From positions 1 through 34,288 of the forward strand of contig QKBZ01000008.1 in assembly GCA_003245895.1 (NCBI GenBank): a DNA stretch of 34,288 nt, in the 5' to 3' direction. Positions 14,169 through 27,938 of this stretch are shown in pieces. The translations under genes and the position numbers were made by a program. Position 1 is the first letter of the stretch. Each line of letters begins with the position of its first letter. The notes below the pieces were generated by a model. The model was not told the DNA's origin and did no database searches. It worked only from the letters and a program-made list of their open reading frames with translations. Source of the stretch: Beggiatoa sp. (GTDB lineage Bacteria > Pseudomonadota > Gammaproteobacteria > Beggiatoales > Beggiatoaceae).

Positions 14169-14660
14169 TTATTTTTTCGAGCTTTTTTCGTCACTGACAT
14201 TAGCAGTGCTATGGTTATCATCTTGGCGACCTGTTATCGTCGCCTTGAAAAAATTTTCCTGCATGTCCTTCCATAAATTAATGTTTTGCTCAGCAATTTC
14301 CGTCATAAACGAAATAGGATTGTACATTTTAGTGCGTACATCATCTTGCTGTTTGGCAAACAAACCTAAACTACGCTCAAAGTAGTTGGCTACGATGCCT
14401 TGCAAAGTATCCCCATAGAAGCGAATCAATTGTGCTAACACCTCACTGCTGAAGATTGGCTCACCTTCTTCTTCCTGTTCCAGAATGATCTGCAACAAAA
14501 TACTACGGGTAATGTCTTGGCCAGTTTTCGCATCTTGAATGCGAAAAGGCACATGTTCCATTACCAGCGTTCTGACATCTTCTAACGTGATATAGCTACT
14601 AATGGCAGTATCGTATAATCGACGGTTAGGATATTTTTTGATAATTCTGGAATCACTCAT
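14169..14660 (-). CDS. phaR: PHA synthesis repressor PhaR
   Basis: 163 residues. The N-terminal DNA-binding domain (PHB accumulation regulatory domain, about residues 6-65) has the hallmark IIKKYPNRRLYDT...YITLEDVRTLV. The second conserved segment (about 70-125) includes LAQLIRFYGDTLQGIVANYFERSL. PhaR binds both phasin promoters and the PHA granule surface, releasing phaP when polymer is present (family knowledge). The C-terminus is polar and variable. The ribosome site is weak (AGAAG before ATG 14660). It is transcribed after phaA; a terminator between them suggests a separate promoter. Confidence 0.92.
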   Translation of the reverse strand: MSDSRIIKKYPNRRLYDTAISSYITLEDVRTLVMEHVPFRIQDAKTGQDITRSILLQIILEQEEEGEPIFSSEVLAQLIRFYGDTLQGIVANYFERSLGLFAKQQDDVRTKMYNPISFMTEIAEQNINLWKDMQENFFKATITGRQDDNHSTANVSDEKSSKK

Positions 14661-14783
14661 GCTCTTAACTTCTAATCGGAATCTCTGCTATGTGTATGTG
14701 TTTAAACCACTGACTTCAATCTAAAAATTTTACCCATCCCGCAGCAGCACAGTGTAAGCTTATCAAACGGTGACACGCAAACT

Positions 14784-14813
14784 AAAATGGCGTGTTTCAC
14801 AACACGCCATTTT
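14784..14813 (-). terminator. Intrinsic terminator of phaA
   Basis: A perfect 13-bp stem, AAAATGGCGTGTT / AACACGCCATTTT, with a 4-base loop. On the minus strand it ends in ATTTTAGTTT. It lies 6 bases after the phaA stop. Confidence 0.8.
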
Positions 14814-14819
14814 GTTACT

Positions 14820-15998
14820 TTAGCGTTCTACCGCTAACGCAACCCCTAAACCACCACCGATACACAAGGTCGCTAAACCTTTTTTCGCATCACGGCGATT
14901 CATTTCATGTAATAAGCCCACTAACACACGCGCACCAGAAGCACCGATAGGATGACCAATGGCAATTGCGCCACCGTTCACATTCACTTTATCAGTGTCC
15001 CAACCTAAGTCACGGTTTACAGAGATAGCTTGTGCAGCAAACGCTTCGTTAGCTTCTACTAAATCTAAATCAGTAGGCTGCCAACCGGCTTTTTCTAAAC
15101 ATTTGCGAGAAGAAGGAATTGGGCCAGTTCCCATGATGCGAGGTTCAACACCTGCGCTAGCATAAGACACGATGCGAGCCATTGGAGTTAAGCCTAATTC
15201 TTTGGCTTTAGACTCAGTCATCACTAACACAGCCGCTGCACCGTCGTTGATGCCTGAAGCATTACCTGCGGTTACGCTGCCGTCTTTGCTAAAGGCTGGA
15301 CGTAATTTTGCCATGCCTTCAGCAGTCGCATCGTGACGGATGAACTCGTCTTCTTTGAATACGATAGGATCGCCTTTGCGCTGTGGAATTTCTACTGGCA
15401 CGATTTGGTCAGCAAAATAGCCTGCTTTTTGTGCAGCAGAGGCTTTTTGTTGTGAAGCAGCGGCAAATGCATCTTGTTCTTCACGGCTGATATCAAAATC
15501 ACACGCGATGTTTTCAGCAGTTTGCCCCATGTGATAATCGTCAAACGCATCCCATAAGCCATCTTTGATCATGCTGTCTTCCATCTTCCAAGGACCCATT
15601 TTAGTGCCTTGACGAGAGTTTGGCAGCAAGTGAGGAGACATGCTCATGTTTTCTTGACCGCCTGCGATAACGATTTCTGCGTCACCACATTTGATCGCTT
15701 GTGCAGCTAAATGAACGGCTTTTAAACCACTACCACACACTTTATTGATGGTCATTGCAGGTGTTGCTACCGGTAAACCAGCTTCAATCACGGCTTGACG
15801 TGCTGGGTTTTGCCCAACCCCTGCGGTCAATACTTGACCTAAGATCACTTCGTCGATTTGCTCTGGTTTCACGCCAGTTTTTTCTAATAAGGCGGAAATT
15901 ACTTTGGCACCTAAAGTGCTTGCAGGAATACCAGACAATGCACCATTAAAGTTACCAACAGCAGTACGCAGTGCTGCGACAATAACAACGTTTTCCAT
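14820..15998 (-). CDS. phaA: Acetyl-CoA C-acetyltransferase (beta-ketothiolase)
   Basis: 392 residues, the biosynthetic-thiolase length. It condenses two acetyl-CoA to acetoacetyl-CoA, the first PHB step. Catalytic residues are all present: nucleophile Cys88 in [10 protein letters not shown], His349 in [12 protein letters not shown] and Cys379 in [15 protein letters not shown] (substrate-site Asn) is also there. The start ATG 15998 has GAGGTAA upstream. A strong terminator follows. A TTGTGCAATGCAA site 78-90 bases upstream resembles the arms of the dyad before phaP. Confidence 0.95.
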
Positions 15999-19617: not shown

Positions 19618-20487
19618 TTAAGCGTATAAAGTAATCTGTTTTTTCAGCTTTTTAATCGCGCTGTTTTCAATTTGGCGGATACGTTCTGCTGAGACGTTAT
19701 ATTTAGCGGCTAATTCATGTAAAGTCGCTTTTTCTTCAGCTAACCAACGACTTTGTAAAATGTCTTGGCTGCGTTCGTCTAAATCAGCGAAGGCTTCGTA
19801 TAAAGCAGTTTGACCTCGGTTTTCCCACTGCTCATCTTCAATCATTTGCGCAGGGTCATAGCGGTCATCTTCTAAATACACCGCAGGTGCAATGCTGTCG
19901 TGATCGTCATCGGCATCAACCGGCGCATCAAATGCCGTGTCGTGCATGCTTAAGCGTTTTTCCATCTCCAGCACATCGCGTGCGGTTACGCCTAAGTCAT
20001 TGGCTACGTCTTCGACTTCTTGTTGTGTCATCCAGCCTAAGCGTTTTTTCGCGCTGCGTAAGTTGAAAAATAACTTACGTTGGGCTTTAGTAGTCGCTAC
20101 TTTGACAATACGCCAATTGCGTAAAATATATTCGTGAATTTCAGCCTTAATCCAATGTACCGCAAAGGTAACTAAGCGCACGCCAACTGTTGGGTTAAAG
20201 CGTTTTACCGCTTTCATTAAGCCAACATTGCCTTCTTGGATAATATCCGCGTGTGGCAAGCCGTAACCACGGTAGCCGTTAGCAATGTGCAACACAAAAC
20301 GTAAATGAGATAAAACCAGCATACGGGCTGCGTTTAAATCTTGTTCATTATAAAAACGGTCGGCTAACTCGCGTTCTGCTTCGGCTGTTAAGATAGGAAT
20401 CGCTTTAACAGCTTGAGTATACCTTTCTGTGTCTTGACCTAATACCGCAAGCTGTGCGTTTAAACTCAGCGTTAATGCAGTAGACAT
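19618..20487 (-). CDS. rpoH: Heat-shock sigma factor sigma-32
   Basis: 289 residues. Directs RNA polymerase to heat-shock promoters. Order: region 1.2/2 with [22 protein letters not shown] and [14 protein letters not shown] (core binding and -10 recognition), the RpoH box with QRKLFFNLR that distinguishes it from other sigma-70 members, region 3, and region 4 helix-turn-helix ([19 protein letters not shown]). GGGAGA precedes ATG 20487. The promoter region carries a CIRCE operator (20517-20543), so HrcA repression is likely in addition to the usual DnaK-dependent control of stability. Confidence 0.95.
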
Positions 20488-20516
20488 AATCGGATTTTCT
20501 CCCTAGTCGTTTTAAT

Positions 20517-20543
20517 TTGGCACTCTTTCACTATGAGTGCTAA
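20517..20543 (-). promoter_or_regulatory. CIRCE element (HrcA operator) upstream of rpoH
   Basis: Reads TTAGCACTC-N9-GAGTGCCAA on the rpoH coding strand, one mismatch from the CIRCE consensus TTAGCACTC-N9-GAGTGCTAA, with the correct spacing. It ends 29 bases before the rpoH ATG and begins just after the -10 box, covering the expected transcription start. Confidence 0.85.
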
Positions 20544-20544
20544 C

Positions 20545-20573
20545 AATATAGGATTTTTTACCAAAATTTCAAG
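20545..20573 (-). promoter_or_regulatory. rpoH promoter, sigma-70 type with sigma-32-like -35
   Basis: The -35 TTGAAA (20567-20572) and -10 TATATT (20545-20550) are 16 bases apart. The extended -35 CTTGAAA is also the sigma-32 consensus, with CC 14 bases later, but the rest of the sigma-32 -10 is poor. Confidence 0.55.
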
Positions 20574-24678: not shown

Positions 24679-26262
24679 CTAAATATTACGCATCTTAATA
24701 TTCAAAGTCTGAATACGATACGCAATTTGACGCGGAGTCATATTTAACAAACGTGCAGCTTTTGCTTGCACCCAACCTGCTTGCTCTAAAGCTGCAATCA
24801 CCCGCTCGCGTTCATCCAAGGATTCATCATTTAAATCCACGCTAGACGGTGAACTGCGTGCAGTATCAGTGCTCGCGTTATTACTGCTGCTGCTCGGTGG
24901 GTTCAACGGCATTTTTTCTTCGATGCCGGTTAAACTGATCACAGAGCGATCAATCAAGCCATCTTCACACATGATCGCGGCACGTTCTAAACAGTTTTCC
25001 AATTCGCGCACGTTACCGGGCCAATCATGACGCATCAGCAAACGCACAGCACTATCGGTTAACTGCAAGGGGCGGCCTTGCGACTTGCCGAGTTTTTCAA
25101 TTAAAAAGCGTGATAATTCAGGAATATCTTCTGTCCGCTGCCGTAACGGCGGCAACTTAATCGGCATCACATTCAGGCGATAATATAAATCCTCCCGAAA
25201 ATCACCCGCTTCTACCGCGCTTTCTAAATCCACGTTGGTCGCCGTAATAATCCGCACATTGACTTTTAAGGTCTTAGCACCGCCGACCCGTTCAAACTCA
25301 CCTTCTTGCAACACGCGCAATAATTTAGCCTGAAACGTGGCAGAAATTTCGCCAATTTCATCTAAAAACAGCGTGCCGCCATCAGCGCGTTCAAAACGGC
25401 CTTTATGTTGGGTTAACGCACCACTAAACGCGCCTTTTTCATGTCCGAATAACTCTGATTCCAACAAGTTTTCCGGCAAGGCGGCACAATTCACTTTAAT
25501 AAAATCCGCATCGTGGCGCGGTGAATTATAGTGAATTGCATTTGCAATCAACTCTTTACCTGTCCCAGATTCACCGCGAATTAACACGGTGGTATTCCAT
25601 TTTGCCACTTGCCGTACCATTTCAAAGATACGTTGCATGGCGGATGAGTGACCGATGATATTGTCGAAACCGTAGCTATTGCGCACAGTACGGCGTAAGC
25701 GGTCACGCTCATCAGTCAAGTCTTGCCGTTCTTTTTCGATTTCATTGGCAAGACGTACACTTTGTGAAATTAACTGCGCCACCATTTCCATGAAACGGGC
25801 GCGTTCTTTGAGCAAATTATCATTGCCCACGCTCGGCTGTGCTGCTAGCACACCGACCAATGCTTGATTAACGTAAATCGGCACACCGATAAACGGTAAA
25901 TGCCGCTCATACAAACCTAAGCGGTCTAAAAAGCGCGAATCATCTCCGGCGCGTTCGACCACCACAGTTTGCTCAGCTTGTAATACTGACCCGATAATAC
26001 CTTCCCCTGGTCGGTATGAGAACTTCGGTGGCACTTGTTTGCGCCCTGCATAGACGGCGTTAATCGATAACATACCGGCCTCGTCACGCAAGGTGACAAC
26101 ACCGTGCTGCATGCCTGCATAGTCATGCAACATTTTTAACACTTCTTGCAACGTCTCCTGAAGATTCAGGGAACGACCTAAGACTTTGCCTACCTGAAAG
26201 AGGGCTTCGAGTTCAGCTTCGATTAAGTTGGAACGATCCAGCGATGAACTGTTAGAAGACAC
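24679..26262 (-). CDS. nifA: NifA, sigma-54-dependent activator of nitrogen fixation genes
   Basis: The start is a GTG at 26262 with AGGA nine bases upstream, giving 527 residues; the first codon is 5 bases after the nifL stop. Order: N-terminal GAF domain (about residues 18-165); AAA+ domain with Walker A GESGTGKE (230-237) and Walker B GGTLFLDE (295-302); a flexible Ser/Asn-rich linker (SSSSNNAS); and a Fis-type C-terminal helix-turn-helix ([14 protein letters not shown]-like, [20 protein letters not shown]). The sigma-54 contact loop reads GAFSGA instead of GAFTGA. The interdomain linker lacks the Cys-x4-Cys of oxygen-sensitive NifA, in line with control by NifL. It activates nif promoters through TGT-N10-ACA sites. 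Confidence 0.95.
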
Positions 26263-26267
26263 ATTAA

Positions 26268-27938
26268 CTATTCCTGAGAACGTGCAACAATGGGAAATTG
26301 GACGATAAAACGGCAACCCGTGGTATAACTGGGGTCAAGTTGTATCGTACCAGAATGTAAATTAACAACATCTTGCACGGTGGTTAATCCTAAACCTGCA
26401 CCACGATTGGCTTTACTCTTAGTTGTGAAAAAAGGCTCAAACACACGAAACCGTAATTGTTCGGGAATCCCTGGCCCATTATCTTGCACGATGACACACA
26501 CCGTATCTTCTTGTGCCAAGGTTTGAATTTTCAATTCGGGGGCTTTCGTCCCCTCATCCCGCATGGCTTCAATGGCGTTGTCCATTAAATGTTTAAACAG
26601 ACTACGCAAACGACCCACACGCGCTAACACTGGCGGTAAAACAGGGGCAGGTTCCCAGTCAACCACCACACCTTGTGCTAATAAACGTTTAGTAGAAATC
26701 GTGAGTACATCACGCAAAATTTCATTTAAATTGGTTGGTACCACGGGTTCTTCGGCAAAAGCAGGAATGCTGCGCCGTAAATTTTCGATGGCTTCTTCTG
26801 CTGAACCTAAGGCATTTTGTAAGGCTTCACACAGGGGATCAGGCTCGCCTCGGGTTTCGGCACGCCGTTCTAACATGCCCACCGCAGCGGTGATCATATT
26901 TAACGGGCCTTCAAATTGGTGAATTGCGCCAGCAAGGGTTTCGCGCATGTTTTCCACCGCTTCACCTTCTGCCATCATGGTACGCAACACATTCATTTTC
27001 ATTTCTTCTTGCTGTCGTTTTAAATCAGTGACTTCTTTCGCCACTAATAGAAAATAACTTTGCTTGCGTACTTCAAAAAACGCATCGGCACTGCTGTCGC
27101 GTTCTTGGAACCATGTACCAGAACAGACAAACCAGCGCGGTAAGCGTTTACCACCAATATCAAACCGCAGTTCTCTATCGACGAAACTGCCATCATTATT
27201 CTTTAAGGTTTCCCATTTGTCGCCTAATTCGTCTTGAATGGCAGCAAGGAAGACTTCAGCCGGTTCGCGGGTGCGTAAGTCACCTACCAGTTTTTTATAT
27301 TCTTGGTTATCTAATACCACCCGTCCATGTTCATCTAACAAGGCAATGACCACGGGTGCTGCATCAACCACCGATTCAATTAAGGCTTTTTGGCTTTTAA
27401 CTTTGTGTTCTAAGTGGTGCATCTCGGTGACATCGCGATGCATGCCGAGATAAAAAGAGGGTTCGCCCTCTGGGTTTAACACAGGTGCAATGGTGACTTC
27501 TGCGAGATAGCGTTCACCGTTTTCACGGCGATTGATCAACATGCCTGTCCACGGCTTCTTCTGTGATAAACGTCCCCATAAGGTTTTATAGACAATACTA
27601 GGGGTTTTACGGTCAGATAAATGGGCTTCATTTAAGCCGACAATTTTATCGACTTGATAGCCAGTGACCCGTTCAAATGCGGGGTTGGCATATAAGATGG
27701 TGGCATTTAAGTCTGTAATAGAGATAGCCACTTGCGCTTGTTCCACCGCCTCATAAAACAAACGAGGGGGTAGCGCGTGTTCGCCATGTTCGCCATTGCT
27801 GATGGCTTCGCGTAATAACGCGAGCATTTCTTCAGAGATACCGGCTGGTGGGTTGGCCAATAGCGTTTCGATGGCCTCTGCCAAGTTATGCAGCCGAAAA
27901 GACAGTTTTTGGTTATTACTCTGGTTTTCAATCATCAC
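26268..27938 (-). CDS. nifL: NifL, redox- and nitrogen-sensing antagonist of NifA
   Basis: 556 residues. Binds and inactivates NifA when oxygen or fixed nitrogen is high. Order: PAS1 (about residues 58-175; the FAD-type PAS core [12 protein letters not shown] and the [21 protein letters not shown] strand), PAS2 (about 185-305), helical H region with His340 ([10 protein letters not shown]), and a GHKL ATPase-like domain with N box [10 protein letters not shown] (450-459), QDNGPGIP (485-492) and GAGLGL (513-518). The start is ATG 27938 or 27935, with GGATAG upstream. A TGT-N10-ACA site lies 70 bases upstream. It is co-transcribed with nifA (5-base gap). Confidence 0.93.

Follow-up and report, generated by a model that had tools for sequence, protein, structure and literature searches.

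The inverted repeat that precedes rpoH in the window, by which we mean the whole stretch of 34,288 nucleotides of Beggiatoa sp. DNA that was analysed, is very probably (we would say with a probability of about 0.88) a working HrcA operator sitting at the start region of that gene's promoter, through which HrcA would repress rpoH and the status of the chaperonin would gate the synthesis of sigma32. This reading is built on the sequence of the operator, its position, its conservation and its co-presence with HrcA, and from these we infer binding, repression, a response to temperature and the sigma factor that reads the promoter.

The CIRCE site and the rpoH promoter

The gene itself, found on the minus strand at 19618-20487, encodes a heat-shock sigma factor sigma32 of 289 amino acids which reaches 402.8 bits with the equivalog model TIGR02392 (cut-off 323.1), and it is the CIRCE-bearing one of two paralogues. 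Read along the rpoH strand, the upstream region consists of CTTGAAA, a 16-bp spacer, TATATT, 1 bp, the CIRCE and a 29-bp leader with AGGGAG before the ATG. The -35 element CTTGAAA (20567-20573, minus strand) is followed by a -10 region TCCTATATT (20545-20553, minus strand), which may be read either as TATATT at 20550-20545, with a spacer of 16 counted from TTGAAA as expected for sigma70, or as TCCTATAT, with the spacer of 13 of a sigma32 promoter, and AGGGAG in the leader (20499-20504, minus strand) is the probable ribosome binding site. The CIRCE occupies 20517-20543 on the minus strand and departs by one mismatch from TTAGCACTC-N9-GAGTGCTAA with the N9 spacer exact, reading TTAGCACTC-ATAGTGAAA-GAGTGCcAA on the rpoH strand and TTGGCACTC-TTTCACTAT-GAGTGCTAA on the plus strand. 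It lies 1 bp after the -10 and 29 bp ahead of the ATG, that is in the promoter and start region of a heat-shock gene, and the predicted start point of rpoH falls within its left arm. The sequence-only reading had described a near-perfect CIRCE immediately after the -10 of rpoH, covering the expected start point and preceded by a -35 of the sigma32 type, and all of this is borne out. A chance match was considered and rejected, since the site is the sole match at three or fewer mismatches in the window, none of 100 dinucleotide shuffles of the window gives one, and the reversed pattern is without a match in the 94 upstream regions of the class sample described below. Elsewhere in the window, two adjacent minus-strand genes at 24679-27938 may encode a NifA-type activator and its PAS/kinase partner of the NifL type, and those at 14169-15998 may encode PhaR, a repressor of polyhydroxyalkanoate synthesis, and an acetyl-CoA acetyltransferase.

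When the window is compared with its closest relative G018, in which RpoH is 82% identical, the elements are kept and the gaps between them have diverged: the CIRCE arms agree at 16 of 18 positions (9/9 and 7/9) and the CIRCE spacer at 4 of 9, and the -35 block is identical at 10/10 and the -10 block at 6/7 positions, as against 2/13 for the promoter spacer.

One of two rpoH paralogues carries the site

Two rpoH paralogues are usual in the family of the window, which we sampled across 25 genera. The second copy of the window's genome (L158:3020-3886, contig C149) is 71% identical to the first and scores 409.0 bits with TIGR02392, and no CIRCE is found upstream of it. Among the relatives with an rpoH match, 31 have hrcA, and the check in related genera that had been suggested earlier finds the site kept, on exactly one copy in all 24 HrcA-bearing genomes with two rpoH genes and in 6/7 of those with a single one. 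Eight genomes of the family are without an HrcA match; the rpoH CIRCE is missing in six of these (G003, G007, G012, G013, G022 and G027), and it is present in the other two, namely the gapped assembly to which the window belongs and G035, which is 59% complete. G007, with neither HrcA nor site, belongs to the same genus as G028, which has both, and this suggests a recent joint loss of the repressor and its site.

In a tree of the RpoH proteins of the family, in which deep support is weak, the CIRCE-bearing copies make up 24 of the 31 rows of one branch and 4 of the 33 rows of the other, and the window's copy together with three further CIRCE-bearing rows falls outside both. Three of the four copies in the second branch come from single-copy genomes and the fourth is from G005 (L164, L135), in which the CIRCE-bearing rpoH is the one that groups with the other branch, which suggests that regulation has been swapped between the paralogues. 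The remaining CIRCE sites that were read in the family all (16/16) precede groES-groEL, and in G018 one is also found before hrcA. The repeat thus marks heat-shock genes in this family, and from the positions of the sites read, the predicted HrcA regulon comprises groESL and one rpoH, to which some members add hrcA itself.

Co-occurrence with HrcA across the class

The wider sample held one genome per family, taken evenly over the Gammaproteobacteria, plus two less complete families from an earlier sample, the class being that of GTDB and thus including the former Betaproteobacteria. An rpoH upstream region was obtained from 94 genomes outside the window's family, and a site was counted when a CIRCE with at most three mismatches lay within 400 bp upstream. 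Such a site precedes rpoH in 62 of the 67 HrcA-bearing genomes as against 4 of the 27 without HrcA (Fisher p 2.6e-13), and when a single mismatch at most is allowed the counts are 56/67 and 3/27 (p 5e-11), both p values being inflated by kinship. Of the 43 named genomes that made up a second set, 8 have HrcA and 35 do not, and the site is found in 7 of the former (8/8 at four mismatches) and in 1 of the latter; the eight are Ketobacter, a Methylomonas MAG, Catenovulum sp. 2E275, a Halieaceae MAG, a Chromatiales MAG, two unplaced gammaproteobacteria and a Thiotrichales MAG, the last having the site with four mismatches. A strict independent-pairs test on the RpoH tree yields only two supported pairs, which are mostly concordant and too few for significance. 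Among genomes without a detectable HrcA, a CIRCE-like site is kept before rpoH in G047, G058, G168, G152 and L041, which may be owing to gaps in the assemblies, to a recent loss or to a different binder.

The site had earlier been set against the usual control of RpoH in most gammaproteobacteria, and this part has to be corrected, since the site is no peculiarity of one genome: a predicted CIRCE before rpoH is the rule in the HrcA-bearing gammaproteobacterial families sampled. The idea that HrcA represses rpoH and so joins two circuits is, on the other hand, strengthened both by the conservation of the site and by its co-occurrence with HrcA, and it is likely that both heat-shock systems are coupled throughout the Gammaproteobacteria, unlike in E. 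coli.

hrcA in the window's genome and alternative explanations

The assembly of the window's genome (4.9 Mb in 451 contigs) is rated 99% complete by marker genes, yet profile searches of it with PF01628 and TIGR00331 do not find hrcA. GrpE and GroES, which are close to universal, are likewise not found in it, and the assembly therefore appears to be missing chaperone loci. A search for further copies of the operator, as the sequence-only reading had advised, returns one besides that of rpoH, at C150:2981-3007. On this 3140-bp contig nadK is followed by the CIRCE, and the contig stops 133 bp further on. G018 has this nadK-CIRCE pair too, with an identical TTTGCACTC left arm and flanks that match, and there an hrcA whose product scores 325.5 bits with TIGR00331 starts 130 bp past the CIRCE. 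The hrcA of the window's genome is hence most likely situated just beyond the end of C150, in an assembly gap. Absence of hrcA from the genome had been named as an outcome that would speak against the operator, and although the gene is indeed absent from the assembly, we do not take this as a refutation: true absence as a matter of biology was considered and rejected, on the grounds that grpE and groES are not found either and that the nadK-CIRCE contig end brackets the gap. A single gap-spanning hrcA-grpE-dnaK operon was likewise rejected, since unrelated genes come after hrcA in G018. The dnaK of the window's genome is found on a separate contig, C44, with a promoter of its own.

Had the organism nevertheless lost hrcA, the repeat would be a relic decaying without function, a notion that finds some support in the missing HrcA match and in the four other genomes of the class sample that still have a CIRCE-like site without HrcA. 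We consider this very unlikely, since the loss of chaperone loci from the assembly is not confined to hrcA, the nadK contig breaks off a few bases from where hrcA should start, the arms of the rpoH site are kept relative to G018 while the spacers have diverged, and the site has in fact disappeared from the six HrcA-less family members named above. It could also be argued that the repeat works not as a DNA operator but at the level of the rpoH message, forming a 5' hairpin that influences mRNA stability or translation, since it is at least partly transcribed, lies 29 nt before the ATG and has a predicted 6-bp stem. The leader, however, folds no better than its shuffles (z -1.0) and contains no unusual fold, the predicted start point falls within the left arm, and the sites follow the presence of HrcA across families, which would not be expected of an RNA role; we rejected this candidate and regard it as extremely improbable.

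Which sigma factor reads the promoter is a question within the preferred reading of an HrcA operator. Tested against CTTGAAA-N11..16-CCCCATNT, the promoter matches the sigma32 pattern at 7/7 positions of the -35 and 5/7 of the -10 at N13, yet a sigma70 promoter is compatible with these bases too, TTGAAA matching at 5/6 positions and the promoter as a whole at 10/12. If sigma70 reads TTGAAA-N16-TATATT, HrcA would be the sole heat-responsive input and sigma32 would not act on its own gene, and this is a serious possibility, albeit one somewhat short of even odds, to which the consensus matches lend support together with the conservation, in the closest relative, of TATA-TG but not of the C-rich stretch of the sigma32 -10. 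Against it stands the resemblance of the family's rpoH promoters to its own groES and dnaK promoters, CTTGAAA-N13-CCTATAT: on a matrix made from the latter the window's rpoH promoter scores 17.7 bits, the second-best value, and 13 of the 32 CIRCE-bearing rpoH promoters of the family reach at least 10 bits, as against 0.45 expected from shuffles. The suggestion of sigma32 autoregulation thereby gains support and is plausible, though sigma70 could be accommodated by these bases as well.

Proposed control of rpoH

As long as cells are free of stress, HrcA would be held active by free GroE, bind the CIRCE and block transcription of rpoH, presumably at initiation since it would cover the predicted start point. 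Heat or protein damage would titrate GroE, or HrcA activity would be lost, or both, and rpoH would be derepressed, so that sigma32 would rise and the chaperone genes would be induced, until returning GroE closes the loop. Once HrcA lets go, sigma32 may furthermore amplify its own synthesis, because the promoter is of the same type as those of groES and dnaK in the family. Of the two typical rpoH copies, one would be wired to HrcA and the other not, and synthesis of sigma32 would follow the status of the chaperonin already at the transcriptional step, ahead of control of the sigma32 protein by DnaK/FtsH as known from E. coli. That rpoH should be transcribed when GroE is short follows from the behaviour of HrcA in the species studied, where GroE promotes its activity and heat lowers it, as in Campylobacter (PMC8533110) and, by the account cited there, in Bacillus (Mogk et al. 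1997 as cited in PMC8533110).

A sigmaE-type promoter interleaved with CIRCE

Outside the window's family GGAACTT is found at a fixed place 16 bp before the CIRCE, with GAAC at -15 or -16 in 43/66 and between -22 and -12 in 45/66 as against 2.2 in shuffles. With a spacer of 16 bp the TCTnA of the promoter GGAACTT-N16-TCTnA coincides with CIRCE positions 8-12 and thus lies inside the operator, and a sigmaE-type promoter with a score of at least 10/12 is present in 43 of the 67 HrcA-bearing class regions (2.6 in shuffles). In Pseudomonas, Marinobacter and Idiomarina, which are without HrcA, a GGAACT(T/A)-N16 element occurs near the same distance with no CIRCE. The element (GGAACTT-N16-TCTRA over the CIRCE) is absent from the window and occurs in 1/32 in its family, no more than in shuffles. 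We somewhat favour, at slightly better than even odds, an ancestral gammaproteobacterial circuit in which the sigmaE-type -10 lay inside the HrcA operator, so that envelope stress could increase sigma32 only under a shortage of chaperonin capacity, with HrcA off. Lineages losing HrcA (E. coli, Pseudomonas and others) would then have lost the operator, translational and stability control would be derived, and the window's family would have swapped the sigmaE half for an autoregulatory promoter of the sigma32 type while keeping the operator on one of its two rpoH copies.

Comparison with known systems

Control of rpoH in E. coli acts chiefly on translation and on the stability of the protein, and E. 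coli is not known to have HrcA/CIRCE. Should a CIRCE before rpoH prove to be general among lineages that have kept HrcA, the negative system (HrcA) and the positive one (sigma32) would form one circuit in most of the gammaproteobacterial families sampled, E. coli would be the exception among gammaproteobacterial heat-shock systems, and the sigmaE-type -10 overlapping the CIRCE would offer a simple two-input promoter for study. A search of the accessible literature gave no account of CIRCE at a gammaproteobacterial rpoH, individual cases of which may be listed by Permina and Gelfand (2003; sigma32 and HrcA regulons) or in RegPrecise. The class-wide rule, the interleaving with a sigmaE-type promoter and the restriction to one of two rpoH paralogues are thus apparently new, no earlier report having been found.

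The known HrcA/CIRCE regulon (groESL and hrcA-grpE-dnaKJ in Bacillus and many other bacteria) has the same operator consensus, N9 spacer and place over the promoter start, and groESL carries a second site in the window's family as well. It differs in its target, which is here the sigma32 gene, so that the repressor would control another regulator rather than chaperones only. The arrangement GAACTT-N16-TCTnA, found with CIRCE in most families, is one that we take to resemble the sigmaE-dependent P3 promoter of E. coli rpoH, and unlike E. coli the window's family has the CIRCE and no sigmaE-type element. Closest is Geobacter sulfurreducens, for which a CIRCE upstream of rpoH was predicted computationally in 2004 at position -51, in this species alone among the deltaproteobacteria tabulated (PMC545781, Table 8). 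As here, this is a computational prediction of the same operator before the same gene; unlike that case, the predicted site is in our samples a rule across HrcA-bearing gammaproteobacterial families, usually interleaved with a sigmaE-type promoter, and in the window's family it is placed on one of two paralogues.
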